From contig PMOP01000085.1 in assembly GCA_003161495.1 (NCBI GenBank), forward strand, positions 1 to 25,296: 25,296 nucleotides of DNA, read 5' to 3'. Under the pieces are notes generated by a model, which searched no databases, was not told where the DNA came from, and saw only the letters and a list, made by a program, of their open reading frames with translations. Shown here in pieces: positions 5,078 to 21,536 of the stretch; position 1 is the first letter of the stretch; each line of letters begins with the position of its first letter. The translations under genes and the position numbers were made by a program. The stretch is from Acidobacteriota bacterium. Its GTDB lineage: Bacteria > Acidobacteriota > Terriglobia > Acidiferrales > UBA7541.

Positions 5078-5128
5078 TCCTCCCCAACACCCCCAAATGC
5101 GCGAGTCCCCCACTGCAGAGTGTTTTGT

Positions 5129-5611
5129 ATGAACAGGGCTCGCGTCAGGAAGGTCCTGTTCGCACTGCTTGTTTTCCTGGTCGTTATCCAAATTTTTCAG
5201 CCCCGGCGAAGGAATCCCCCCGTGGCGCTTTCCAGGTCCCTGCCCTCTCATGTGCGCGTGCCTCGGGATGTCTACGCCGCCCTGATCCGCTCATGCGGGG
5301 ATTGCCATTCAAACCAGACCCATTGGCCCTGGTATGGCCGTGTGGCCCCATTGTCCTGGGTGATTACTGACGACGTCAACGAAGGGCGCCGGCACATGAA
5401 TTTTGAAGATTGGCAAGCCTTGGCTGACCCCAAGCAGGCCAACGACCGCTTGACCAGCATTTGCGAGGAAATCAAGCAAAACGGCATGCCTCCTTTTTCG
5501 TATCGCCTCGTCCACCAGGACTTGCGTTTGAAGCCCCAGGAGACAGCCGCAATATGCACATGGTCTCAGTCTTTCCGGACCAACCCGGTTGGATCGGGCG
5601 GGCTTCCCTGA
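5129..5611 (+). CDS. Membrane-anchored haem-binding-domain protein
   Basis: A 160-residue protein (start ATG 5129; GTG 5120 would add three residues). A basic N-terminus is followed by one hydrophobic segment (residues 8-24, KVLFALLVFLVVIQIF). It is then a soluble domain with a single CxxCH haem c motif (CGDCH, 56-60) in the context HSNQTHWPWYGRVAPLSWVITDDVNEGR, and a later NGMPPFSYRLVH segment. This arrangement is that of the haem-binding domain family (Pfam Haem_bd) found in small periplasmic proteins. It probably carries one covalently attached haem on the outer face of the inner membrane, with a redox or sensing role that I cannot specify. Nothing in the neighbours explains it; it may be unrelated to the polysaccharide genes. 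Confidence 0.85.
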   Translation: MNRARVRKVLFALLVFLVVIQIFQPRRRNPPVALSRSLPSHVRVPRDVYAALIRSCGDCHSNQTHWPWYGRVAPLSWVITDDVNEGRRHMNFEDWQALADPKQANDRLTSICEEIKQNGMPPFSYRLVHQDLRLKPQETAAICTWSQSFRTNPVGSGGLP

Positions 5612-5842: not shown

Positions 5843-5895
5843 ATTAGTAAATGAGACGGGCTCTCGCTCTCAAATTCGATCTGAACAAAGGCGAT

Positions 5896-6969
5896 ATGGC
5901 GACCACGGCAATATCCAAGACAGGGGCCGGGAACCGGACAGCAAGCCTTCCGCCGGCGAGCCTGATATTCGGGCGCACGGCGGCGATGCAAACTACCCGT
6001 ATGAAGGTCGATAAGGTGGCCTCTTCCGGGGTTCCCATCCTGATCCAGGGCGACAGCGGCACGGGAAAGGGGCTGCTGGCCAAATTTATTCACCAGCTTT
6101 CTCCCAAACTGAATTCCCCGTTCGTGAAGGTGAATTGCGCGGCAATACCCGGCGCTCTTCTGGAAAGCGAATTGTTCGGCTATGAGAAGGGTGCGTTCAC
6201 AGGGGCGCAGACCGCCAAGCCAGGCCGCGTGGAATTGGCCGATGGCGGCACGCTTTTCCTCGATGGTATCGACGAGATGGACATATCGTTGCAGGCCAAA
6301 TTGCTTCAACTGCTGCAGGACGGGCAGTTCTTTAGAATTGGCGGCCAGGAAGACATGCGCGTCGAACTCCGGGTAATCTGCGCGACGAATCGGCGGCTCG
6401 AGGCGGAAATCGCGAGTGGCAGGTTTCGGCAGGACTTGTTTTACCGCATCAACGTGGTCAGCATCGAGCTTCCGCCGCTGCGTTCGCGCGTGGAAGATAT
6501 ACCTGAATTAGTGGCACATTTCCTGCAGATTCACAGGGTCCGGCATAACATGGAGGCGCGTCCTCTTTCCGCCTCGGCTCTCCATTTGCTTTCCAAGCAT
6601 TCGTGGCCGGGCAACATTCGCGAGTTGGAAAATTTAATGGAGCGGTATGTGATTCTTGGGTCGGAAGACGCCATATCCAGTGAGTTATTAAACTGGGAGT
6701 ACACCCACACCCCTCGCGAAATTCCCGTGGAAGGCCAGATCCACCTTAAAAAAGTAACTCGGCAAGCGATTGACGATCTCGAGCGAAAAATAATCTTGAG
6801 CGTATTGGAAGCCAATCATTGGAATCGCAAGCGAACCGCCAGCGCACTCAGAATCAGCTACCGCGCCTTGCTTTATAAAATTCGTCGCGCCGGCTTACCC
6901 CGAAAACGGGGAATGCACCTTCCGCCCGCCCAAATTATTTCTCCTTCCCCTGCCGCCCGGGAAAACTAA
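5896..6969 (+). CDS. Receiver-less sigma-54 activator with altered Walker B (EBP1)
   Basis: A 357-residue protein: a short N-terminus, an AAA+ sigma-54 interaction domain and a Fis-type helix-turn-helix. Walker A is GDSGTGKG (52-59). The sigma-54 contact loop is intact, ELFGYEKGAFTGA (92-104). Walker B reads TLFLDGIDEM (119-128), with Gly in place of the catalytic Glu. Sensor I ICATNR, the arginine-finger region GRFRQDLFYRIN and WPGNIRELEN all follow. The C-terminus has HWNRKRTASALRISYRALLYKI. There is no receiver, GAF or PAS domain, so its input must be another protein or its own expression. The start at 5896 is preferred over ATG 5851 because AAAGG lies 4 bases upstream; the first 15 residues of the longer form resemble nothing. 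Likely role: regulation of the neighbouring polysaccharide genes. Confidence 0.88.
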   Translation: MATTAISKTGAGNRTASLPPASLIFGRTAAMQTTRMKVDKVASSGVPILIQGDSGTGKGLLAKFIHQLSPKLNSPFVKVNCAAIPGALLESELFGYEKGAFTGAQTAKPGRVELADGGTLFLDGIDEMDISLQAKLLQLLQDGQFFRIGGQEDMRVELRVICATNRRLEAEIASGRFRQDLFYRINVVSIELPPLRSRVEDIPELVAHFLQIHRVRHNMEARPLSASALHLLSKHSWPGNIRELENLMERYVILGSEDAISSELLNWEYTHTPREIPVEGQIHLKKVTRQAIDDLERKIILSVLEANHWNRKRTASALRISYRALLYKIRRAGLPRKRGMHLPPAQIISPSPAAREN

Positions 6970-7088
6970 AGCGTAGGAGGCGAACCGGGCCGCCGCGGAC
7001 GGTGAGCCTTTAGTAGCTACAAATATCCTATTTATTATGTGTAAGATACGTGGCAATGGAGAAAAAGAAAAATAACAGAGAAATTTAT

Positions 7089-7104
7089 TTCCACTATGTG
7101 GTAA
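7089..7104. promoter_or_regulatory. Inverted repeat upstream of the export-operon promoter
   Basis: TTCCAC, three bases, then GTGGTAA forms a near-perfect palindrome about 120 bases before the -24 element at 7226. That is a usual distance for an activator binding site. A related palindrome with the same half-site in the other order lies at 21717-21734. Function is inferred from position only. Confidence 0.35.
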
Positions 7105-7225: not shown

Positions 7226-7241
7226 TGGCCCGTACTTTGCT
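7226..7241 (+). promoter_or_regulatory. Sigma-54 promoter of the EBP2-export operon
   Basis: TGGCCC-GTACT-TTGC-T: GG at 7227-7228 and GC at 7239-7240 with exactly 10 bases between. It differs from the TGGCAC-N5-TTGC consensus at one position. Transcription should start near 7252, giving a leader of about 58 bases before ATG 7310, which has AGAGG four bases upstream. This promoter would drive EBP2, the Wza-like gene, the beta-barrel gene and probably the ATPase. Confidence 0.7.
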
Positions 7242-7309: not shown

Positions 7310-8338
7310 ATGGAAACTCGGGCAGACGAAAATCTTCTATCAGCAGGGATGCCTGATTCCCGGGCTCGTGCCTACCATTACTTCGTTCGCGGCACCAGCC
7401 CGGCCATGCGCGCATTGGAGCGCACGATCGCGGACATCGCCTCCACGGACATTCCGGTGCTTCTGGTCGGAGAAAGTGGGACCGGCAAGGAAGTGGTTGC
7501 TCTTGAAATTCACCGCCTCTCGAGGCGCCGAAATGAGCCGTTTGTAAAATGCGGGTGTTCTGGATTGACTGGGGATACACTATCAGCGCGCCTGCTGTGC
7601 GCGGAAAATGTCTCGGCGGCGGATGCGGCGACCGGCGGATCGTTGTTTTTGGACGGGATCAATCACCTGGAACCGGCGGTGCAGAGCCTCCTGCTCCCTC
7701 TACTTCCCGACGGCAGCGGGACGCCGGCGCAGGGTTGCCAGAGCATGCGCATCATTTCGTCGACAACGCGAAATCTCGAGGAGGAGATGAAGAGCGGGCG
7801 ATTCCGGGAGGAACTTTATTACCGTATCAACGGAGTTCATTTGCGGCTGCCGCGGTTGCGCGACCGAAGAGAAGACATTCCCGCGTTGCTGGAATTTTTC
7901 TTCAAGAAATATTCCTCTCTGTTTGAGAGGCCGGAGCCGAAAGTCAGCGAATCCACAATGAATTTGTTGCTGGGCCATGAGTGGCCCGGAAATATCCGCG
8001 AGCTGGAAAATATGGCGCGAAAAATCGTGGCGTTGGGCGATGAACACCTCGCAACGCATGACCTTACCGGGGAAAGCAGATCCAAGGCGCCCGAGCCTTT
8101 TCCGGAGGCTCTGAAAATTTCCGGAAACGGATATTCCCGTGTGCCTTGCGGTTCCTTGAAAGAAGCGGGCCGGGCAGCTTCTAGGGTGGCTGAGCGCGCC
8201 ATGATTCTGAGCCAGCTTGAGCGAACGCACTGGAACCGAAAAAGGGCGGCGCGAGAACTGCAAATCAGTTACAAAGCTCTGCTTTATAAATTGAAACAAT
8301 TGGGTTTGGACGGTTCCGACCGTCCGGAGGAGCAATGA
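7310..8338 (+). CDS. Sigma-54 activator-like protein lacking the GAFTGA loop (EBP2)
   Basis: A 342-residue AAA+ protein of the NtrC family without a receiver. Walker A is intact (GESGTGKE, 54-61). The segment that should hold ELFGYEKGAFTGA is replaced by ARLLCAENVSAADAATGG (93-110), about 8 residues shorter than in EBP1, so the sigma-54 contact loop is missing. Walker B is SLFLDGINHL with Gly for the catalytic Glu. GRFREELYYRIN and WPGNIRELEN are kept. The Fis-type helix-turn-helix HWNRKRAARELQISYKALLYKL closely matches EBP1. Known GAFTGA-less relatives (TyrR, Rhodobacter NtrC) do not activate sigma-54 and act through sigma-70 or as repressors. Its stop overlaps the next gene's start by 4 bases (ATGA), so it is translationally coupled to the export gene. 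Likely a repressor or co-regulator; that is inference. Confidence 0.88.
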   Translation: METRADENLLSAGMPDSRARAYHYFVRGTSPAMRALERTIADIASTDIPVLLVGESGTGKEVVALEIHRLSRRRNEPFVKCGCSGLTGDTLSARLLCAENVSAADAATGGSLFLDGINHLEPAVQSLLLPLLPDGSGTPAQGCQSMRIISSTTRNLEEEMKSGRFREELYYRINGVHLRLPRLRDRREDIPALLEFFFKKYSSLFERPEPKVSESTMNLLLGHEWPGNIRELENMARKIVALGDEHLATHDLTGESRSKAPEPFPEALKISGNGYSRVPCGSLKEAGRAASRVAERAMILSQLERTHWNRKRAARELQISYKALLYKLKQLGLDGSDRPEEQ

Positions 8339-9009
8339 GGAAGTCTGCCATGAACCGAATAACGCTCTTTATTGCCGCTGTGATTCTGTTCGCAACCGGG
8401 GCTAACGCACGTGCAGCGTTCCAGGACAAAAAAGCCGAGAAGCAGGATGCGCCCAGCGCTTCCGCGCGAAGCACTGGCACCGGTGTGGACGATACCAGGG
8501 CGGCGCCGGCCGCGGCCACAACGGATCCCTCTTACGTGATTGGACCCGAAGACATGCTGGACATCAACGTCTGGAAAGAGCCGGACATGACGCGCCTCGT
8601 GCCGGTGCGGCCCGACGGAAAAATTTCATTGCCGCTGATTAACGACGTGCAGGCGGCCGGCTTGACGCCGCAGCAGCTGGCCACGGCGGTAACCGAAAGA
8701 TTGCGCAAGTTCCTGACGGGACCTCAGGTGACTGTGATTGTCACGGCCATCAACAGCCAGCGCGTGTTTGTGGTGGGCGAAGTTCTTCGCGCGGGCGCAT
8801 TTCCTTTGATACCAGGCATGACGGTTCTGCAGGCGCTCGCGAATGCCGGAGGATTTACTACCTTTGCAAATGAAAAAAAGATACACGTAATGCGACTGGT
8901 CAACGGCAAACATACTGAGATTCCCTTCAATTACCGGGAAGTTCTCAAAGGCGACAATCCGGACCAAAATATCAAGCTGGAGCCGGGCGACACAGTCGTC
9001 GTCCCCTAA
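8335..9009 (+). CDS. Polysaccharide export protein (Wza/Poly_export, SLBB)
   Basis: A 224-residue exported protein: a signal peptide (about 1-27, MNRITLFIAAVILFATGANARA), a low-complexity linker, a Poly_export domain (about 66-140, YVIGPEDMLDINVWKEPDMT, VRPDGKISLPLIND) and one SLBB domain (about 142-190, VFVVGEVLRAGAFPL). Such proteins form the periplasmic and outer-membrane channel for capsule or exopolysaccharide. Unlike Escherichia coli Wza it has no lipobox cysteine, only one SLBB and no C-terminal membrane helix, so it may need the next gene product to cross the outer membrane. GGAGG lies four bases before ATG 8335, inside the end of EBP2. The stop of this gene overlaps the first possible ATG (9009) of the next. 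Confidence 0.9.
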   Translation: MRKSAMNRITLFIAAVILFATGANARAAFQDKKAEKQDAPSASARSTGTGVDDTRAAPAAATTDPSYVIGPEDMLDINVWKEPDMTRLVPVRPDGKISLPLINDVQAAGLTPQQLATAVTERLRKFLTGPQVTVIVTAINSQRVFVVGEVLRAGAFPLIPGMTVLQALANAGGFTTFANEKKIHVMRLVNGKHTEIPFNYREVLKGDNPDQNIKLEPGDTVVVP

Positions 9010-9029
9010 TGCCTCGAATGGATGACACG

Positions 9030-10538
9030 ATGAAATTGCGAGTAAAAAACTGGACGATCATCATGGCACTGGCGCTTTGCGCGACCGCGGCCTTTGCGCA
9101 AGATCAAAAGCAGGACACGCTGCCCGCCGATGCGAACGCTCCGCTCCAACCCTTGAACACCAACCCGAACGGCGGATACTCGAATCCGCCCATCGGCGCG
9201 GCGCGCGGTCTTTCCGGGCCGGACAATTCCCAGTCTTATGATCCTTCGCAGGCCACTCCGGATCAGAACACGCTCGCTGGAGCTACCCCTTTCACACTGG
9301 GATCGATGCAGCATTTGGGCAATGTTTTCGACCCCGCGATTTCGATTTCACAACAGGGGCAAAGTTACCCTGGTAGCGCGACCGGGCAATCGAGCCTGTC
9401 GGCCGCAACTGTTTTAGGCGGCAGCCTGAAATTCGACCGAATCTGGGGCAGGAACGACTTTTCAATCCTCTACCATGGTGCGGAGACTTTCAATTACGGC
9501 TTTGGCTCGTCCAACCCTTTTGGTTCAGGCTCACAGAATTATCCATTTCACGATCTGGTCGCTACACAAGAAGGCGACTGGGGCAGGTGGCGCGTTGTTC
9601 TTAAAGATGAATTTTCGGTCTCGCCCAACGCCACGTTCGGAGGCCAAGGCTTTGGTGGTCCCGGGCTGGCTGCTCAAATTTCTTCTCAATTGGGCTCTTC
9701 TCTGGGCAATTTCGCGGGAACAACAGCGACCAGTCAAACGATCGATACCGGTTTTGGCATGCGCTACATGAACTCGATTCTGGGCCAGGTGGGTTATTCG
9801 TTTACCCGAAGGTCTACGATTACTATCTCCGGTTCTTATGGCTTGCTGCATTTCGCCGGGGCCGGGTACATTAGCAGCAACATGGTGAACGCGCAGGCGG
9901 GCTACGACTATCTACTCGATCCGTCCGATTCCATTTCCGTTATAGGCACCTACGGCAAGATTACATACCCCGGGACTGGGAATATCACGACGGATTATGT
10001 GGGCGCTCTGGCTTATGGAAGGAAAATTACCGGGCGCCTGGCATTCCAGATTTCCGCGGGGCCGCAGGAAATTCGCTCGACCGGCACGGGAGGAGTGGGA
10101 AGCTTCAACCAGCTGTTCGCTTCGGTCAACAGCGCACTGACTTATCAGCGGCGGCGGAGCGGCCTTTCTTTTAGTTACACACGCGGGCTGACCGGAGGAT
10201 CCGGCGTTCTGGAGGGAGCGACGAGCAATACATTTTCCGGCTCGGTGAACTACAAAATCACACGATTCTGGACGGGGGCAATTAACGGCGGGTACGCAAT
10301 GAACACCAGTCTGGCACCGGTTGGAGCGACCACTTTGAAATTCGACACTTGGTTCGTGGGCGCGAGCCTGGGCCGGCAAGTCGGACGGCATGCGCAAATT
10401 AATTTCAGTTACGGAGCGCTGGATCAGAACACCCCGGCGAGCTGCCCGGTGACCAGTTGCGGTATACCCGGGCTTCAACAAAGTTTTGGAATGACGGTCA
10501 ACTGGCATTTGCTGCCCATCACTGTGAGCGGTCGTTAA
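9030..10538 (+). CDS. Outer-membrane beta-barrel protein of the export operon
   Basis: A 502-residue exported protein from ATG 9030 (MKLRVKNWTIIMALALCATAAFA, cleavage near AFA-QDQ); ATG 9009, overlapping the previous stop, would add MPRMDDT and spoil the signal peptide. After an Asn-, Pro- and Gln-rich stretch (about 25-85) the rest is made of alternating short strands rich in Gly, Ser, Tyr and Phe (for example QVGYSFTRRSTITISGSYGLLHF and SVNYKITRFWTGAINGGYAM, each part of longer stretches). This is typical of a transmembrane beta-barrel of about 400 residues. No enzyme motif is visible. Its place between a Wza-like protein and an XrtA-locus-type ATPase matches outer-membrane proteins of exopolysaccharide/PEP-CTERM loci, so it may form the outer-membrane pore. 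The family name is not certain. Confidence 0.82.
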   Translation: MKLRVKNWTIIMALALCATAAFAQDQKQDTLPADANAPLQPLNTNPNGGYSNPPIGAARGLSGPDNSQSYDPSQATPDQNTLAGATPFTLGSMQHLGNVFDPAISISQQGQSYPGSATGQSSLSAATVLGGSLKFDRIWGRNDFSILYHGAETFNYGFGSSNPFGSGSQNYPFHDLVATQEGDWGRWRVVLKDEFSVSPNATFGGQGFGGPGLAAQISSQLGSSLGNFAGTTATSQTIDTGFGMRYMNSILGQVGYSFTRRSTITISGSYGLLHFAGAGYISSNMVNAQAGYDYLLDPSDSISVIGTYGKITYPGTGNITTDYVGALAYGRKITGRLAFQISAGPQEIRSTGTGGVGSFNQLFASVNSALTYQRRRSGLSFSYTRGLTGGSGVLEGATSNTFSGSVNYKITRFWTGAINGGYAMNTSLAPVGATTLKFDTWFVGASLGRQVGRHAQINFSYGALDQNTPASCPVTSCGIPGLQQSFGMTVNWHLLPITVSGR

Positions 10539-10603: not shown

Positions 10604-11593
10604 ATGTATAAGAAGTTCTTCGGACTCAAAGAGAATCCGTTTAACGTCAATCCGGACCCGCGCTATCTTTTCCTGACGCCGCACACGCAGGAAGCGCTGG
10701 CCTGCTTGACGTATGGAATCGAGACCCGCAAGGGCTTCATCCTGCTGACCGGCGAAGTGGGAACCGGCAAAACCACGCTGATCAATAAGACGCTGGAATG
10801 GCTGCACAAGGAGCGCGTTTTTACGGCATTTGTGTTCAACCCGCGCTTGAGCGTCTCGCAGTTTTTCGATTTCATGATGGCGGACTTCGGCATTCCCTGC
10901 GAATCGCACCAAAAGGGACAGATGCTGCTGAAATTAAATCAGTGGCTGCTCGATCGTTACCGGGCCGGAGAACGCGCCGTGCTGGTCGTCGATGAGGCGC
11001 AGAATCTTTCGCCGCAAATGCTCGAGGAAATCCGGCTGCTGACGAACCTGGAGACCTCCACAGAAAAACTGCTGCAAATCGTTCTTGCGGGCCAGCCCGA
11101 ACTCGAACATAAGCTCAATCAACCCGAGCTTCGGCAGCTCCGGCAGCGCATCACCCTGCGCGCCAAGACGCGCCAGCTCACGCTGGAGGAAACTCAAGGA
11201 TATATTGAGGAGCGCATGCGCATCGCGGGAGCGGAAAATCCCGATATTTTCAGTCCGGAAGCGGTGGCCATGGTCCACCGGTATGCGCGCGGGATTCCCA
11301 GGGTCACGAATCTGCTGTGCGAGCACGCGCTGGTGAGCTCGTTTGCGGACCAGAAAAATCCGGTGCCGCCTGAAATCGTGGAGGAAGTTGCGCGCGACTT
11401 TGATTTGCATGTGGTTGACCCGCTCGCGCAGGCGACACCGCCGGCCAACGCCCGGTCTCACCCCTCAGCAACAGGAACGAATGGCGATCAGCCACTCTTG
11501 ATTGAATCTCTGTTGCAGGCGCTGAACACCCTCGTCGACCGCCTCAACCAGGCGGATGCCCGCGTCGAATCCGATCCTGAACACAAAACCTGA
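10604..11593 (+). CDS. ExeA-like AAA ATPase of exopolysaccharide/XrtA-type loci
   Basis: A 329-residue ATPase beginning MYKKFFGLKENPFNVNPDPR, a hallmark of the ExeA/GspA-like family that includes the putative secretion ATPase found near XrtA exosortase and exopolysaccharide genes. Walker A is GEVGTGKTT (50-58), Walker B is AVLVVDEAQNL (Asp130, Glu131). RQRITLRAKTRQLT and GIPRVTNLLCEHAL give the sensor and lid regions. The C-terminal 55 residues are a variable linker plus a predicted helix (LLIESLLQALNTLVDRLNQ). It is cytoplasmic, with AAGGA six bases before ATG 10604, and follows the beta-barrel by 65 bases. Likely role: ATP-driven control or assembly of polysaccharide export. No exosortase or PEP-CTERM protein occurs in the window. 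Confidence 0.88.
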   Translation: MYKKFFGLKENPFNVNPDPRYLFLTPHTQEALACLTYGIETRKGFILLTGEVGTGKTTLINKTLEWLHKERVFTAFVFNPRLSVSQFFDFMMADFGIPCESHQKGQMLLKLNQWLLDRYRAGERAVLVVDEAQNLSPQMLEEIRLLTNLETSTEKLLQIVLAGQPELEHKLNQPELRQLRQRITLRAKTRQLTLEETQGYIEERMRIAGAENPDIFSPEAVAMVHRYARGIPRVTNLLCEHALVSSFADQKNPVPPEIVEEVARDFDLHVVDPLAQATPPANARSHPSATGTNGDQPLLIESLLQALNTLVDRLNQADARVESDPEHKT

Positions 11594-11636: not shown

Positions 11637-13028
11637 TCATTCCTTGATTTGGTGCTCCATCATTTTCTGATAAAGAAGGCGCCGATTGATTTGCAGTTTA
11701 TTTGCGGCTTCCGTTTTGTTTCCAGCGGCAAGTCTCAATGCGTTTTCAATGAGTTTTTTTTCAAGTTCTCCGACGGCTTTGTGAAACGGAAGCGAAAGCA
11801 GGTCGCCTTCCAATGGTCCGGCACCGGCGGCCGGCGATGAGGCGGCCATTTGCGGGAAATGAACCGGCAGGATGACCCGTCCCCGGGCCATCAACACAGC
11901 GCGCTCCACCATGTTTTCCAGTTCGCGCACATTTCCGGGATACGAATAGGCTTGCAACAATAGCATGGCTTCTTCGGAGAAGCCGACTGCGGGAAGACCG
12001 CTGTTTTCGCTGTACAGCCGCAAGAAATGTTCGGCCATGGGAACGATATCCGCGCGGCGCTCCCGTAACGGGGGCACGGTAATCCGGACAACATTCAGCC
12101 GGTAAAATAAATCTTCGCGAAAAAGTTTCTCTCGAACGGTCGCGTCCAGGTCGCGATTCGTGGCGGCTAAAACGCGAAAGTCTCCGCTTATGGTTTCGCC
12201 GCCCCCTAATCGCTCGAAGCTATGGTCTTGCAGGACTCTTAAGAGCTTGGCCTGAATGTTTTGAGACAATTCGCCGATTTCATCCAGAAAAATCGTTCCA
12301 CCCTCCGCCAATTCAAATCGGCCAATTTTTCGCGCTGCGGCGCCTGTAAAGGCTCCCCGTTCGTAGCCGAACAATTCCGATTCCAGCAAATTCTCCGGCA
12401 GAGCCGCGCAATTGACGACCACGAATGCGTTATCTTTTCGGCGGCTGTAATTATGAATCGCCTCCGCCACAAGTTCCTTTCCGGTTCCCGATTCTCCGCA
12501 GATCAGGACGGTGGTATCGGTCTCGGCGACTTTCCCGATCATCTTGAACGCATCCAGCATGCGGGCGCTGGAGCCAATCAGTCGCCCGGTTCCCAGAGTA
12601 TTCTGACGTTCGATTCGGGCGCGCAGGTCCACCACTTCCCGATTGAGTGAAGAATGCGCGAGGGCGCGTTCCACCGTCAGCGAGATTTCTTCCAGGTCAA
12701 ATGGCTTCATCACAAAATCGTAAGCGCCGAGCCGGACCGCTTCAATCGCGTTATGACTGGAGCCGAACGCAGTGATGACAATGACGGGAATCGCGGACAG
12801 CCGCTGCTCCTTCCGAATGTGTCGCAGGACATCCTCGCCCCCCAACTTCGGCATTCTCCAATCCGTAAATACCAGGTCGGGGATCCCTCTTCCCAGCAGA
12901 TCGATGGCTTCCAAGCCGTCCCCTGCTTCCAGGATTTGATATCCTTTCCCGCCAAGAATCTCCGCAAGCGTTTTACGGAGATTGACCTCGTCATCGATAA
13001 TGAGAATGGTTTGTCCCATGGCTGGCAT
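11637..13028 (-). CDS. NtrC-family sigma-54 response regulator (RR1)
   Basis: A complete 463-residue activator. The receiver (7-120) has the acidic pair in IIDDE, phosphorylation Asp56 (VFTDWRMP), switch Thr in VITAFG and Lys108 (VMKPF). The AAA+ domain has Walker A GESGTGKE (178-185), an intact ELFGYERGAFTGA (218-230), canonical Walker B FLDEIGE (247-253), sensor AATNRD and WPGN-like YPGNVRELEN. The Fis-type C-terminus (AAGNKTEAANKLQINRRLLYQKM) has a recognition helix different from the other three activators in the window. ATG 13028 overlaps the kinase stop (TGATG), so it is coupled to the kinase; an internal ATG at 13019 is a second option. When phosphorylated it should activate sigma-54 promoters, possibly the divergent pair found upstream of its own operon. 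Confidence 0.95.
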   Translation of the reverse strand: MPAMGQTILIIDDEVNLRKTLAEILGGKGYQILEAGDGLEAIDLLGRGIPDLVFTDWRMPKLGGEDVLRHIRKEQRLSAIPVIVITAFGSSHNAIEAVRLGAYDFVMKPFDLEEISLTVERALAHSSLNREVVDLRARIERQNTLGTGRLIGSSARMLDAFKMIGKVAETDTTVLICGESGTGKELVAEAIHNYSRRKDNAFVVVNCAALPENLLESELFGYERGAFTGAAARKIGRFELAEGGTIFLDEIGELSQNIQAKLLRVLQDHSFERLGGGETISGDFRVLAATNRDLDATVREKLFREDLFYRLNVVRITVPPLRERRADIVPMAEHFLRLYSENSGLPAVGFSEEAMLLLQAYSYPGNVRELENMVERAVLMARGRVILPVHFPQMAASSPAAGAGPLEGDLLSLPFHKAVGELEKKLIENALRLAAGNKTEAANKLQINRRLLYQKMMEHQIKE

Positions 13029-14611
13029 CAGGAAACGCGAATAGTCTCGGGAACCTTATCGTGCACCGGAAGAATGATCCGCACCCTGGTCCCGTCGCCT
13101 TCCGCGCTTTCAACTTGAATTTCTCCACCGTGCGCGCGGACAAACTCGTGGCAGATGGAAAGGCCGAGCCCAGTACCGGATGGCTTCGTCGTAAAGAAAG
13201 GATCGAAGACTCTGCTGATCATGCTAGAGCTGATCCCATTCCCGGTGTCGCGAAACTCGACGCGAACCTTATCGGTACCGGACACCGATTTCACCGTAGA
13301 CGTTACACTCACCCACAGAGTTCCGCCCGATTCGCTCATGGCTTCGATGGCATTCTGAATGACGTTGTCGAATACCTGCGCCATTTTGCTCTGGTCGATC
13401 GGAAGCAACGTCCCGTCCTCGGGAAAGCTGGTGATAAAATGAATGCCGTTCTTTTGGGCATTATCGGAAAATCGGTTCAGTCGCTGTTCGGTCAATTGCT
13501 TCAAGCTGGTTGGCTCGGGTTGAAAACGGACGGGGCGGGCAAAATTCAGCAATCGATTGACCATGCCATTCAGCCGTTCGATTTCTTCGAGAGCGATCGC
13601 GCAAGATTCGTCCACTCGGGGAATGCGCGCTTCCCGCTGCGCCATTTGAACACGCAATCGAATCGTGGCGAGCGGGTTGCGAACTTCGTGCGCGACACCC
13701 GCGACGAGACGCCCCAGGGCTGCAAGCCGCTCGGAATGCCGCAACTGGTCTTCGATCTGCTTTTCCCGTTCGATATTCTCACGCAAGGACGCTCCCAACC
13801 GATTAATCGCCTGCGCGATACGCTCGATTTCTTCCGGATCGGAACCCATCGGGATTTGCGAGGTAAGATCCCATTCCAAATCCTGGAGACTGCTCTCAAT
13901 CTTTCTGACGCCTGCTTGCAGATTCCGCACCACCCCCAAGGTGAGAAGCACGCAAACCAGCGCCGCCACCCCCAATGCCACGGTAATGAGATAAGCCCGC
14001 AGCCGATTGGCGCCGGGTAAACTCTGCAGCCGCTCGATCGTCCACGCGCTCCCCCATTGGGAATTTTCATTGCCAATGGGCGCTGCCTCGATCAGGAAAA
14101 AATCATTGCCACCCGTCAAAACCCTTTCCGCCGGCATATGGGAATTGGCTGCGTTTCGCGCGGCCTCTAGAATCGCGGGCTGCACATCCTCATGTGCTGC
14201 GCCTACGCCCAGAACCGGTACATTCTCAGTCCCCCGGTTAGCTGCTGGCGTATAGCCGAGAAGAAGTTCGCCATCGCTTTTGTAAAATCCGCCGCCAATA
14301 CCTTCCACTTTTTGTAAGGCGCTCTGACTGATCTCCGAAGTCGTTTCCGCAGAAGACACCAGGCCAAGATCCACGGATGACAATCCTTTCACCTGGCTGG
14401 CGGATTTAGCGTTATTCACGTAGTTGCGGGCCAGTTCGCTGGCGGCCTCAAACAAGCGCCGCTTCTCGTTGTTGAGAACCGCCGATTTGGTGTATTGCAG
14501 CGCGGCGAGCGCAGCAATCAACACGGCGACGAACAAAACGACGACGACGGCGCCCAGCAAAGTAATTTGCCAACGAAAACTAAGCCTTGGGAGTGAAAGT
14601 CTGGCAGACAA
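13028..14611 (-). CDS. Membrane histidine kinase, NtrB-like, HAMP (HK1)
   Basis: A 527-residue sensor kinase partnering RR1. Transmembrane segments at about 15-38 and 206-228 bracket a periplasmic sensor of about 165 residues with no recognised family. A HAMP region (about 229-281) and a short coiled coil follow. The HisKA domain has VAGVAHEVRNPLA (phosphorylated His308). The HATPase domain has N416/N420 (FDNVIQNAIEAM), DTGNGI (455-460) and GTGLGLSI (479-486). The start is TTG at 14611: AAGGGGGG lies about 7 bases upstream and no ATG gives a complete first membrane segment. Phosphotransfer to RR1 is expected from the one-base gene overlap. The signal is unknown. A perfect sigma-54 promoter lies 367 bases upstream on the same strand. 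Confidence 0.94.
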   Translation of the reverse strand: MSARLSLPRLSFRWQITLLGAVVVVLFVAVLIAALAALQYTKSAVLNNEKRRLFEAASELARNYVNNAKSASQVKGLSSVDLGLVSSAETTSEISQSALQKVEGIGGGFYKSDGELLLGYTPAANRGTENVPVLGVGAAHEDVQPAILEAARNAANSHMPAERVLTGGNDFFLIEAAPIGNENSQWGSAWTIERLQSLPGANRLRAYLITVALGVAALVCVLLTLGVVRNLQAGVRKIESSLQDLEWDLTSQIPMGSDPEEIERIAQAINRLGASLRENIEREKQIEDQLRHSERLAALGRLVAGVAHEVRNPLATIRLRVQMAQREARIPRVDESCAIALEEIERLNGMVNRLLNFARPVRFQPEPTSLKQLTEQRLNRFSDNAQKNGIHFITSFPEDGTLLPIDQSKMAQVFDNVIQNAIEAMSESGGTLWVSVTSTVKSVSGTDKVRVEFRDTGNGISSSMISRVFDPFFTTKPSGTGLGLSICHEFVRAHGGEIQVESAEGDGTRVRIILPVHDKVPETIRVS

Positions 14612-14977: not shown

Positions 14978-14993
14978 AGCAAATGGAGTGCCA
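14978..14993 (-). promoter_or_regulatory. Perfect sigma-54 promoter for the small peptide and HK1-RR1 operon
   Basis: On the minus strand TGGCAC (14993-14988), TCCAT, TTGC (14982-14979), T: a full match to TGGCAC-N5-TTGC with the required 10 bases between GG and GC. Transcription should start near 14967. Downstream come the 34-residue ORF, a hairpin and HK1-RR1, so RR1 may control its own operon. Confidence 0.75.
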
Positions 14994-18777: not shown

Positions 18778-20268
18778 CTAGCCGTGCCTGCCCGCGGGCG
18801 CAAGATCCGACGGCGCCGAACCGGTGCTGGGAGTCCCGCCACCCGGGGCGACTTTTTTGTTACTCGCGCGCGCCGGGCGTCCTGTGTCCAATCCAAACTG
18901 CCGGATTTTATAAAGCAGCGCTTTATAACTGATCCCCAGCATCTTGGCCGCATCCTTGCGGCACCAGTGCGTTTTTTCCAATGCGTCCCCGATCGCTTCC
19001 ATCTCGGCTTCGTCTTTCAAACTGCGCACCAGCGCCTTCAGCCCCTGCTCGCGAACCGGGGCCGGCTCTTCTCTCGGAGAAATTCGCTGGCGCGTCGCGG
19101 ACATTTCCAGCAACTCGCGGAAGCTGCCCTCGTCGTCTTCCAAAATGACATAGCGCTTCACGAAATTTTCGAGTTCGCGAAGATTCCCCGGCCAGGGATA
19201 GCGCACGGCGGCTTCCATCAAGTGCTGGGAAGGAACCATGGGCTCCTTGTTGAATTTCTCGCTGTATTTCTGAAGGAAATGGCGGAAGAGCAGCGGAATT
19301 TCGGTGGCCCGTTCGCGCAGGGGAGGAACATTGATGGAGAGTACGTTCAGGCGATAGTACAAATCTTCACGGAGGCGGCCCGACTTCATCGCTTCCTGAA
19401 TTTCCACGTTGGTTGCGGCGAGGACGCGCACATCCACGTCAATCAATTGGCGCCCGCCCAGGCGCGAAAACTGGTGGTCTTGCAGGACGTGCAGGAGCTT
19501 GGCCTGCAAGTGAGGACTCATTTCCGCGATTTCGTCCAGGAAAATCGTTCCCTTGGTGGCCAGCTCAAATTTGCCGGGCTTGGAACGCACGGCGCCGGTA
19601 AACGCGCCCTGTTCATAGCCGAACAATTCGGATTCGAGCAACTCGCCGGGAAGCGCCGCGCAATTGACTTTGATGAAGGCCTGATTGCGGCGCGTCGACC
19701 GCATATGAATCAGGCGCGCGACCACTTCTTTTCCTACTCCACTCTCTCCATAAATAAACACGGGGACATCGACGGGCGCGATTTGAAGGATCTGCTGGCG
19801 AATCCGCACCATCTGAGGACTGGCGGCCAGGAAGCACAAGTCTTCGGTGATCTTGTCGCAGTATTCGCGCAACGCCTTGTTTTCCGTGCGCAGTTGCTGC
19901 TTTTGCCGGCACTTCAGCATGGCCACGTCGAGCTCGGCTTTTTCAAACGGCTTGGTCAGGTAATCCAGCGCGCCCAGGCGAATGGCCTCGACGACCGTGC
20001 CCACTTCATTGGAACAGGAAAGCATGACCACGTTCAGTGAGCGGTCAATCTGCATCAGCTGCTTCAAGGTCTCAATGCCATTCAATTCCGGCATCAGAAC
20101 GTCCAGGATGATGAAATCCGGTCGCTCGCCGTCCTCGATCTTCTTAATGGCCTCGGCTCCCGAGGTCACTGAGTCGACCTGATATCCGTCCACTTCCAGC
20201 AACGTGCCCAGATACTTTCGTATGCTGGGTTCGTCGTCTACGACCAGGATTCTCTCTTTTTCAGCCAT
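18778..20268 (-). CDS. NtrC-family sigma-54 response regulator (RR2)
   Basis: A 496-residue activator. The receiver has VVDDEPSIRKY, phosphorylation Asp56 (IILDVLMPELNG), Ser in place of the switch Thr (VMLSCSNE) and Lys106 (LTKPFE). The AAA+ domain has Walker A GESGVGKE (174-181), intact ELFGYEQGAFTGA, canonical FLDEIAEM, GRLREDLYYRLN and WPGNLRELEN. The Fis-type helix-turn-helix HWCRKDAAKMLGISYKALLYKI is nearly that of EBP1 and EBP2. A Gly/Pro/Ala-rich tail of about 30 residues follows. ATG 20268 has AAGGCGG five bases upstream; ATG 20295 would add nine residues. It follows HK2 by 47 bases and is its likely partner. The layout resembles PrsK/PrsR-type regulators of exopolysaccharide loci, but that equivalence is not proven. 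Confidence 0.93.
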   Translation of the reverse strand: MAEKERILVVDDEPSIRKYLGTLLEVDGYQVDSVTSGAEAIKKIEDGERPDFIILDVLMPELNGIETLKQLMQIDRSLNVVMLSCSNEVGTVVEAIRLGALDYLTKPFEKAELDVAMLKCRQKQQLRTENKALREYCDKITEDLCFLAASPQMVRIRQQILQIAPVDVPVFIYGESGVGKEVVARLIHMRSTRRNQAFIKVNCAALPGELLESELFGYEQGAFTGAVRSKPGKFELATKGTIFLDEIAEMSPHLQAKLLHVLQDHQFSRLGGRQLIDVDVRVLAATNVEIQEAMKSGRLREDLYYRLNVLSINVPPLRERATEIPLLFRHFLQKYSEKFNKEPMVPSQHLMEAAVRYPWPGNLRELENFVKRYVILEDDEGSFRELLEMSATRQRISPREEPAPVREQGLKALVRSLKDEAEMEAIGDALEKTHWCRKDAAKMLGISYKALLYKIRQFGLDTGRPARASNKKVAPGGGTPSTGSAPSDLAPAGRHG

Positions 20269-20315
20269 TTGATCCGCCTTCATCTTCGTCTTCATCTTGC
20301 CGGAATTGCATTCCG

Positions 20316-21536
20316 CTATGAATTATCTATTGGCAGCAGGAACGTAAAGGTACTGCCCCGCCGCAGTTCGCTCTCCACCCAGATTTTGCCGCGATGCGCC
20401 TGCACCAGCCGTTTGGCGATGGCGAGACCCAAACCCATTCCCGATGAGGTGCGGTCCACGCGCACAAAGTCCTCGAAAATTTCCTGATGATGCTCGGAAG
20501 CGATCCCGGGACCGGAATCCGACACGGAAACTTTGATGGAATTAGGATGCTGAACGCGCTCACGGCGGCGATCCTGGGCCTGCACTTCCTCGGTCGAGCG
20601 GCGTTCCCAGAAGTGAGCCTCGGCGCGAAAAATCACGTGGCCGCCGGCGGGCGTGTGTTTCAGCGAATTATCCAGAAGATTAGCCACCGTCTGTTGTACT
20701 TTCTGGTAATCAAATTTAAAAATGGGTATGTCCGCATTCAGAATCGTATCGAGCCGGACGTGCTTGCGCACGAACGCTTCGTGCCAGCGCGTCGCCAGTT
20801 CGCTCAGGCAATCCCGCAAATCGTTCTCGCGCAAATGCAACACCAGCTTGCCGCTTTCCAGGGCCGAATAATTCAGGAACATCGAAACCAGTCGAACCAG
20901 ACGCTCGCAACTTTCTTTCGATTCCTGCAGGATGTCCCGCTGCTTGTCGGTCAATTTCCCGAGCGAACCTGAGAGCAGCAAATCGTAATAGCCTTTAATC
21001 ACCGCGAGGGGCGTCTTCAATTCGTGCGCGGCCGACGCCAGGAATACGGTCTTCTGGCGGTTCACTTCCTGGAGCCGCAAGTAGGCGGCGAGCAGGTTTC
21101 GATAGGTAATCTCCCGTTCCTGCAGCAGCCCTTGCACGGTATGCTGCCCGCTAGCCTCTGGACCTGGGATCAATTGCTTTTCCGGGTCTTCGAAACGGAC
21201 CACCAGCCAGTCTGCCTCCGGTAGCCATTGGATGCGGGCCAGAGCCGCGCCGCCGCAACAATCGAATTTCGAATCGATTTGATTCTCTCCGGCCTCGATT
21301 TGGTCCGAAATTACGTTGGGATGGACGTGCAGCAGGTCGGAAAACAGGTTTGAACTCGGATCGAAGGAGAATCCGTGAGATCCAAGGCGTTGTATGCCGC
21401 TCTGGTTGACCTGCAGAATACGGCCGGAGCGGTCGGAAATCAGAATGGGCTGATCGAGCAACTCCAGAAGAGCGACGATGACGCTCGCCGGGATGGCTTC
21501 CTTGGCTGGCAACTCGATAACAGGACCACGTCTCAA
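20316..21536 (-). CDS. Soluble PAS histidine kinase (HK2)
   Basis: A 406-residue kinase without membrane segments. A PAS-like domain (about 18-115, LLELLDQPILISDRSGRILQ) is followed by a helical linker (LLQEREITYRNLLAAYLRLQEVNRQK). The HisKA domain has ASAAHELKTPLAVIKGYYD (His171). The HATPase has N286/N290 (VANLLDNSLKHTP), DSGPGI (340-345) and GMGLGLAI (366-373). An unusual charged insert of about 25 residues (305-330, rich in Arg, Glu and Gln) precedes the DSGPGI box. The start is TTG 21536 with GAGGTGA five bases upstream; an ATG further upstream is followed by a stop. It heads a kinase-RR2 operon, divergent from PilZ 4 across 373 bases. Its cytoplasmic signal is unknown. Confidence 0.92.
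   Translation of the reverse strand: MRRGPVIELPAKEAIPASVIVALLELLDQPILISDRSGRILQVNQSGIQRLGSHGFSFDPSSNLFSDLLHVHPNVISDQIEAGENQIDSKFDCCGGAALARIQWLPEADWLVVRFEDPEKQLIPGPEASGQHTVQGLLQEREITYRNLLAAYLRLQEVNRQKTVFLASAAHELKTPLAVIKGYYDLLLSGSLGKLTDKQRDILQESKESCERLVRLVSMFLNYSALESGKLVLHLRENDLRDCLSELATRWHEAFVRKHVRLDTILNADIPIFKFDYQKVQQTVANLLDNSLKHTPAGGHVIFRAEAHFWERRSTEEVQAQDRRRERVQHPNSIKVSVSDSGPGIASEHHQEIFEDFVRVDRTSSGMGLGLAIAKRLVQAHRGKIWVESELRRGSTFTFLLPIDNS

Follow-up and report, generated by a model that had tools for sequence, protein, structure and literature searches.

A conserved GAFTGA-less EBP at the head of an export operon in Acidobacteriota: a candidate antagonist of sigma-54 activation

The locus

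The window, by which we mean the whole stretch of DNA analysed here (25,296 nucleotides, contig PMOP01000085.1 of the acidobacterial assembly GCA_003161495.1), carries several genes for proteins of the EBP type, among them those that we call EBP1, EBP2 and EBP3, and an export operon that begins with EBP2 (Table 1). The export protein and the ATPase of this operon are relatives of the XrtA/PEP-CTERM families, with scores below the curated cutoffs. The protein encoded between them is kept in this place in most of the relatives that have the operon. Nearby are also a GGDEF protein and two glycosyltransferases, as well as a small protein (5120-5611) with a CGDCHS motif, which we take to be heme-binding-like; it adjoins EBP1 in four of the five congener loci. 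A one-mismatch sigma-54-like site, TGGCACTCCATTTGCT (14978-14993, minus strand), precedes, at a distance of 366 bp, a pair of genes for a histidine kinase and a response-regulator EBP. Neither this response regulator (420.9 bits) nor EBP3 (374.9 bits) reaches the cutoff of 502.6 of the PrsR family TIGR02915.

Table 1. Coordinates of genes and sequence features in the window
Feature	Coordinates	Strand	Basis or remark
EBP1, GAFTGA-bearing paralogue; recognition helix of the type seen in EBP2	5851..6969	+	upstream of EBP2
Dyad TTTCCACTATGTGGTAA, candidate enhancer (UAS)	7088..7104	.	congener alignment; 138 bp upstream of the -24/-12 element
Sigma-54-like -24/-12 element TGGCCCGTACTTTGCT, before EBP2 and the export operon	7226..7241	+	pattern match, shuffles, conservation
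EBP2, protein of AAA+ and Fis-type HTH domains; GAFTGA and sensor domain absent	7310..8338	+	342 aa ORF
EBP2 Walker A GESGTGKE, intact (residues 54-61)	7469..7492	+	sequence and alignment
EBP2 segment in place of L1/GAFTGA, 10 residues short (about residues 84-110)	7559..7639	+	alignment and count
EBP2 Walker B Asp115-Gly116 (Glu replaced)	7652..7657	+	sequence and alignment
EBP2 degenerate L2 / pre-sensor I loop (about residues 133-146)	7706..7747	+	alignment
EBP2 retained arginine-finger segment GRFREELYYRI (residues 163-173)	7796..7828	+	assigned by motif
EBP2 HTH with recognition helix ISYKALLYKLKQ (about residues 308-332)	8231..8305	+	type common to EBP1 and EBP3
Poly_export/SLBB (Wza-like) protein	8335..9009	+	TIGR03027 162.3 bits, below cutoff 180
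Conserved operon protein	9009..10538	+	no Pfam or NCBIfam match
XrtA/PEP-CTERM-associated ATPase-like protein	10604..11593	+	TIGR03015 293.4 bits, below cutoff 324.5
Response-regulator EBP	11637..13028	-	paired with the kinase below; downstream of TGGCACTCCATTTGCT
Histidine kinase	13028..14611	-	paired with the EBP above; downstream of TGGCACTCCATTTGCT
EBP3, receiver-AAA+-HTH response regulator with GAFTGA, helix ISYKALLYKIRQ	18778..20295	-	domain and motif match
Histidine kinase immediately upstream of EBP3	20316..21536	-	same strand as EBP3

The EBP2 protein

EBP2 scores 110 bits against Sigma54_activat, where EBP1 scores 223 bits, and it also matches the AAA+ lid and HTH_8, the latter above its cutoff. 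N-terminal to the AAA+ domain, which starts at residue 28, there is no Pfam domain, hence no receiver-like domain such as VpsR has. The Walker A motif and the Fis-type HTH, which a preliminary description of the locus had listed as retained, are indeed in place. The same description had the GAFTGA loop replaced by a segment about 8 residues shorter: the loss stands, since a motif search of the translated ORF finds no GAFTGA-like hexamer, while the shortfall counts to 10 residues.

This count is best appreciated from the spacing of the conserved motifs. Between Walker A Lys60 and Walker B Asp115 EBP2 has 54 residues. The corresponding interval is exactly 64 in all 51 alignment rows with GAFTGA or a close variant (19 EBP1, 13 EBP3, 12 more distant relatives and 7 other EBPs of the own genome), as against 42 to 59 in 75 GAFTGA-less rows. 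From Walker B to sensor I, the next interval, every one of the 51 GAFTGA-type rows has 40 residues, whereas the 75 others range from 32 to 44 with a median of 36. L1 and L2 are the sigma-54-facing loops known from the work on PspF, and because both spacings are altered we regard the conserved form of both loops as lost in EBP2. The degenerate L2, the Gly116 of Walker B and a replaced sensor I Asn go beyond what had been described before; among the GAFTGA-less rows Walker B reads DE in 33 of 75 (DG in EBP2) and the sensor I Asn is present in 3 of 75. EBP2 is thus a bEBP-type AAA+ domain with a deletion in L1, as in the GAFTGA-less bEBP relatives. The motif on which contact with sigma-54 is known to depend is missing, in support of the earlier statement that contact in the known way is precluded, and since GAFTGA is essential according to passages of PMC3162934 and PMC10274813, EBP2 should be unable to remodel the sigma-54 polymerase by itself.

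Distribution, origin and selection

An orthologue of EBP2 is found in 26 of 61 genomes (the own genome and 60 relatives), and GAFTGA is absent from all 26; the other four best matches that were read (L043, L044, L046 and L047) carry it. A second, partly overlapping set is formed by the best 80 of 588 confirmed loci, which were collected via HTH peptide patterns; 19 of the 80 share contigs with members of the 26. In this set 68 loci are without GAFTGA, and their HTH conservation is in part a product of selection, because the loci were found through the HTH. The HTH is also near-invariant in a separate alignment of 24 rows that came from a search of the relatives' genomes. Twelve of the best 80 loci carry GAFTGA or a one-letter variant: nine are of the Myxococcota/Deltaproteobacteria type, two are acidobacterial (gp11) and one belongs to an unnamed bacterium.

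Among the matches listed in a database search with the EBP2 profile, a true GAFTGA is missing from all 120 relatives; 118 of them could be parsed and show a Walker A-B spacing of 50-57. The lack of the motif is partly by selection as well, because the profile itself is GAFTGA-less. Two loose-pattern matches to GAFTGA among them (P0045 and P0096) were dismissed, as they are located at Walker B. Where the listed relatives are named, the names given are 'response regulator AtoC', 'NtrC family response regulator' and 'sigma 54-interacting'. Given that not one of the 120 has a true GAFTGA, such naming is probably wrong as far as sigma-54 contact is concerned. Two records titled Bacillota and Verrucomicrobia (L090 and L127) have an EBP2 of the acidobacterial type and are probably assemblies that were misbinned or misnamed.

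In a tree of 125 rows, which retained the loop columns and left out the L002, L003 and L072 rows, 74 GAFTGA-less rows form one clade (SH-aLRT 99) on a long stem (0.58), and one state change suffices. A tree of 73 rows from which only the L1 columns were removed, with a third of the EBP2 rows (25) kept and with the L002 and L003 rows, the EBP2 of L071, L072, L125 and three outgroup rows left out, gives EBP2 as a clade (100/100) separate from those of EBP1 (99/96) and EBP3 (100/99). The program issued a long-branch warning for both trees. Judging from these trees, the GAFTGA-less copies arose once, and the clade is known here almost only from Acidobacteriota. A simple recent duplication of EBP1 finds no support, since the three proteins stand in separate clades. 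Homologues with an intact GAFTGA at the export locus, on whose absence the preliminary description had staked its idea, do not occur within the EBP2 clade and do occur outside it: ten of the twelve distant relatives stand at most 700 bp upstream of an export gene. Because an intact GAFTGA at this place is met only outside the clade, or as EBP1 in genomes without EBP2, the comparison suggests that the loss is the derived state.

It could be argued that EBP2 is a decaying paralogue or the product of a sequencing error, and the long stem branch and the fast evolution of the L1 segment and of the linker may be read in this way. Pairwise identity within EBP2, compared with that within EBP1, is 8% against 77% for L1 and 11% against 55% for L2. 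The rest of the domain behaves differently: 76% against 75% for the arginine-finger segment, 86% against 78% for the HTH, 74% against 84% for Walker A and 86% against 97% for sensor II. Of the 26 matches only L031 has an internal stop, and this stands at the extreme end of the match. The estimate of dN and dS rests on the closest congener pair, dS being saturated in most other pairs; there the whole EBP2 gene has a dN of 0.053 and a dS of 0.44, with dN/dS values of 0.22/0.37 for the L1 segment and 0/0.47 for the HTH. We consider EBP2 to be under purifying selection on these grounds. With the low dN/dS of this pair, the near-invariant HTH and all 26 orthologues agreeing in the lack of GAFTGA, a sequencing error that would restore the loop, as envisaged earlier, is rejected, and the reading as a pseudogene has next to no probability left.

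The ATP site shows a further pattern. The first Gly of Walker A or the Asp of Walker B is lost in 23 of the 75 GAFTGA-less rows, and 19 of these 23 fall into a single branch whose records have Acidobacteriaceae and Sulfotelmatobacter names. The first arginine finger is kept in 23 of the 23, the second in 20 and the sensor II Arg in 19. (Loci L121, L127, L129-L131, L135, L139-L142, L144, L145 and L148-L151 are a branch of EBP2 relatives with a degenerate Walker A of the AExGAGK[KRH] type and an altered Walker B next to a near-invariant HTH.) The arginine fingers were assigned by motif, after their roles in PspF. Arginine fingers act on the ATP site of the neighbour in AAA+ rings, and for this reason their retention hints at assembly with ATP-binding partners. 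As both Walker residues are kept in 52 of the 75 rows, ATP-binding homo-oligomers of EBP2 may form as well.

Neighbourhood of EBP2 in relatives

It had been noticed from the sequence of the window that EBP2 heads the operon and overlaps the Wza-like gene by four bases, and both observations hold here (the overlap is at 8335-8338). The position is conserved, with the export gene directly downstream in 22 of the 26 genomes and at most 700 bp downstream in 65 of the 68 GAFTGA-less loci from the best 80 of 588. Hence the expectation that the loss of GAFTGA would be conserved is borne out in 26 of 26 genomes, and the expectation that EBP2 would always stand next to the export gene holds in most of them (22 of 26). 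The four exceptions are L064 (ATPase gene next, no match for the export gene), L065 (export gene 2.7 kb away), L066 (about 1.6 kb of contig without an export match) and L072 (at the end of its contig). At L064 (10578-12394) the ATPase gene directly after EBP2 is followed by two weaker ATPase-like matches.

We do not regard the overlap itself as a conserved coupling. An overlap of -4 is possible in six of the 22 genomes with an adjacent export gene; in 13 of the 22 the ATG/GTG start candidates of the export gene lie 10-73 bp downstream of EBP2 (one of these also has a candidate at -20), and three have no start candidate between -40 and 120.

Promoter and dyad

The element before EBP2, previously called a near-perfect sigma-54 promoter, is the sole match without mismatch to TGGCNCGNNNNTTGCW in the window, where there is one site with a single mismatch. 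When two mismatches are allowed the window contains 26 matches against 19.4 expected, so that weak matches are meaningless. The score of the element was not reached by any of 100 dinucleotide shuffles of the 430 bp around the EBP2 start. Over the 26 EBP2 gene starts the best scores average 17.3, whereas dinucleotide shuffles average 14.5 and not one of 100 shuffle sets attains 17.3; single loci can be weak (L068 is reached by 45 of 100 shuffles, L056 by 17 and L060 by 13). With a scoring scheme and a cut of at least 16 that were chosen after the window had been seen, the site is present before 65 of 72 EBP2 loci and before none of 12 GAFTGA-bearing relatives. The 72 loci are the 26 orthologues plus 46 of the 68 GAFTGA-less loci from the best 80 of 588, 19 loci on contigs of the 26 and three with short upstream sequence having been left out. 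The rpoN gene was found in four of five congeners and not in the own assembly, which is 72.6% complete.

The alignment of six congeners further reveals a conserved dyad, TTNCCACNNNGTGGNAA, 137-138 bp upstream of the -24 element. At 124-142 bp from the -24 element at least 10 of its 12 bases are matched in 25 of 70 loci, as against 0 to 3 loci in ten control windows of equal width; the dyad was derived from the six congeners, which are themselves among the 25. Where it recurs in this form, its distance from the promoter is nearly fixed (130-138 bp). At least 8 of 12 matches are found in 50 of the 70 loci (control windows 1 to 18), and 20 of the 70 EBP2 loci have no dyad of this quality at the fixed spacing.

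Would the dyad mark other targets? The exact 12 bases are present in 6 of 37 genomes and occur at two places in the own assembly; the second place (G000:C180:1663) was rejected as a target because it lies within an ORF, near its start. A looser pattern of dyad plus promoter has matches in 35 of the 37 genomes, by eye mostly non-recurrent and probably due to chance. They include the EBP2 place in every one of the six genomes of the genus, as well as in G009, G014 and G015, and by eye it is EBP2's own promoter that alone recurs in all six, at enhancer distance.

This bears on the possibility that EBP2 is a sigma-70-type factor acting at other promoters, its sigma-54 promoter only setting the timing. 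We see it as the strongest rival explanation because the GAFTGA-less regulators in print follow this mode: VpsR, TyrR, HupR and the NtrC of Rhodobacter and Caulobacter work at sigma-70 promoters, some of the GAFTGA-deleted EBPs as activators (passages in PMC3162934 and PMC10274813), and VpsR, a regulator of exopolysaccharide genes, is among the PDB matches of EBP2. Against it, the one place with dyad and promoter that by eye recurs in six of six genomes is its own promoter, and EBP2 has neither a receiver nor another sensor domain. In our opinion this explanation is unlikely.

The layout around the exosortase gene (PF09721) offers another view of the same region. The gene is on another contig (C476) of the own genome and was not detected in four of five congeners. 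In nine EBP2-bearing genomes (G006, G014, G015, G018, G025, G026, G028, G053 and G060) it adjoins EBP2 on the opposite strand; in seven of the nine, sigma-54-like sites scoring at least 16 face it, and in five of the nine a dyad (8 to 12 of 12) lies 252-255 bp from the best of these sites, both counts being without shuffle control. EBP2 might then be an architectural protein that holds the DNA of this divergent region between its two sigma-54 promoters and takes no part in ring assembly. Yet the dyad, the promoter and EBP2 itself are also present where the exosortase is undetected or sits on another contig, and the conservation of the arginine fingers would be left unexplained. Thus we find a purely architectural role quite improbable.

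EBP1, EBP3 and the common recognition helix

Of the 18 EBP matches in the own genome the HTH of 11 was read, and only EBP1, EBP2 and EBP3 have a helix of the form ISY[KR]ALLYK. Every one of the 26 genomes with EBP2 also has EBP3 (E at most 1e-130), as do 15 of the 35 without it, counts that are uncorrected for shared ancestry; the cutoff is our own choice, and G026 passes it narrowly and only over part of EBP3. EBP1 (E at most 1e-88, likewise our choice) is present in 23 of the 26; 24 pass, the match in G060 being its EBP3 gene. The Walker B of EBP1 reads DG instead of DE in six of six genomes of the genus, with GAFTGA intact.

EBP1 is also present in several genomes without EBP2, and in some of these an intact EBP1 adjoins the export gene. 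Its promoters have looser, related half-sites. In two EBP2-less genomes, G017 and G027, a half-site lies 134-135 bp from a sigma-54-like site at EBP1, and an enhancer common to EBP1 and EBP2 is suggested by these half-sites, suggestive only as they are. The loci L074 and L079, from two genomes without EBP2, have a related half-site dyad 134-135 bp upstream of the sigma-54-like site before EBP1 and, in addition, a sigma-54-like site with the high score of 18.5 in front of the export gene. The congeners have a conserved sigma-54-like site of the TTTGGCTCGYTGTGTGCA type just upstream of EBP1.

It is possible to imagine EBP2 as a co-activator subunit that contributes arginine fingers and DNA anchoring to a mixed ring in which EBP3 or EBP1 contacts sigma-54. 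To our knowledge, both partners keep the contact loop in the documented mixed pairs (HrpR/HrpS and VnfA1/VnfA3), which counts against this role. EBP3 also occurs without EBP2 in 15 genomes and EBP1 in several, so neither of them need have EBP2. The arginine fingers do speak for the co-activator, both being present in 20 of the 23 rows with a degenerate ATP site of their own and the sensor II Arg in 19, and so do hetero-oligomers of paralogous EBPs, as documented in PMC9542535 in its accessible part. We deem this role unlikely.

Proposed function

Our hypothesis is that EBP2 is a dedicated antagonist of sigma-54 activation, which would bind the dyad of its own operon or join the ring of an active EBP and so provide negative feedback; we assign it a probability of roughly 0.5. 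The circuit could run as follows. An activator with GAFTGA and the same type of helix, most likely EBP3 and perhaps EBP1, would bind the dyad about 135 bp upstream and switch on the sigma-54 promoter of the EBP2-export operon. EBP2 and the export protein would be made together from this promoter. EBP2 would then occupy the same dyad, or insert into the ring of the activator, without touching sigma-54, and would lower further activation, the outcome being negative autoregulation of export. In relatives with the divergent layout the exosortase is possibly under negative control by EBP2 as well.

Some elements of this proposal can be read from the sequences directly: the loss of both sigma-54 loops, purifying selection, the conserved promoter-like site, the dyad, the gene order, the common helix and the retained arginine fingers. 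Others, namely binding of EBP2 to the dyad, the identity of the activator and the sign of the effect, we infer. That EBP2 rather than EBP3 or EBP1 would sit at the dyad is read solely from helix similarity. Negative autoregulation, by competition for the dyad or through mixed rings, would be the simplest circuit, its sign being a deduction of ours. No sensor domain is present in EBP2, so that the input to which it most evidently responds is its own amount. Dyad, common helix, the companion EBP3, conserved arginine fingers and divergent exosortase region all fit an antagonist. The brake would be dispensable in 15 genomes, because EBP3 is present there without EBP2. In summary, the idea of an antagonist appears well motivated, while the computed evidence fits repression and activation alike.

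A broader form of the hypothesis would extend to the whole EBP2 clade. Its members would be dominant-negative subunits, deprived of the sigma-54 contacts, with DNA binding and arginine fingers kept, made by the very enhancer that they occupy, and acting as a brake on export and, in some genera, on the divergent exosortase. We offer this extension tentatively, as clearly less probable than the proposal for EBP2 itself.

Comparison with known systems

TyrR acts as a repressor, and TyrR, DhaR and HupR have ligand or phosphorylation input domains. The repressor role of TyrR is also hinted at in the portion of PMC3162934 available, where TyrR, DhaR, HupR, VpsR and YplP are named among the GAFTGA-defective EBPs. 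TyrR, DhaR and HupR share the defective motif with EBP2, and unlike EBP2 in its setting they belong to sigma-70 promoters (same source). VpsR of Vibrio cholerae is GAFTGA-deleted as well, has a related AAA+ domain (PDB match 2.6e-33) and regulates exopolysaccharide genes; for this reason the claim that the arrangement of EBP2 is new needs trimming, as a GAFTGA-less regulator of such genes is on record (PMC3162934, in part). VpsR works at sigma-70 promoters (passages in PMC10274813, which also mentions its aspartyl site), whereas EBP2 itself stands behind a sigma-54-like promoter and a dyad.

The NtrC proteins of Caulobacter and Rhodobacter capsulatus, GAFTGA-defective too, resemble EBP2 in an L1 deletion that covers GAFTGA, 8 residues long in Caulobacter, and Caulobacter NtrC both represses and activates (sections of PMC10274813). 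They differ from EBP2 in being receiver-bearing nitrogen regulators, while EBP2 has a degenerate L2, a degenerate Walker A/B in part of its clade and the tie to export genes. FleQ of Pseudomonas, also an EBP, acts on exopolysaccharide genes both as a repressor and as an activator and works together with the ATPase FleN (PMC10723142, in part).

PrsR/PrsK offer a further comparison: sigma-54 control with an upstream motif at PEP-CTERM genes has been predicted for Proteobacteria with PrsR/PrsK, so that a sigma-54 site, a response-regulator EBP and an upstream motif meet at genes of an exosortase system. Unlike EBP2, PrsR is described as an enhancer-binding activator, and the available portion of PMC1569441, from which these points are taken, mentions no GAFTGA-less partner. 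RpoN dependence is shown for one pepA gene (PMC9850573, in part). Paralogous EBPs on one promoter are described for HrpR/HrpS and VnfA1/VnfA3, a loop-less partner going unmentioned in the portion of PMC9542535 at hand, and two EBPs can use overlapping sites (PMC10162802, in part). The accessible parts of PMC12316311 and PMC12054792 contain nothing on a GAFTGA-less protein like EBP2. Nor do the listed titles and abstract openings of the open literature, outside which most subscription papers lie, describe a GAFTGA-less EBP from Acidobacteriota or an EBP of this kind that heads an export operon downstream of its own sigma-54 promoter.

EBP2 is real and conserved; GAFTGA-less regulators such as VpsR, TyrR and Caulobacter NtrC were already known, and the arrangement is a new variation on them. 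GAFTGA-less EBPs have been described in print singly, as sigma-70 regulators (PMC3162934 and PMC10274813, in part), while EBP2 represents a whole clade that seems to belong to a sigma-54 circuit, with intact paralogues of the same helix type next to it. Should EBP2 indeed be a brake, we would have before us a dominant-negative EBP of natural origin, and soil bacteria would have in it a simple feedback on the export of surface polysaccharide.
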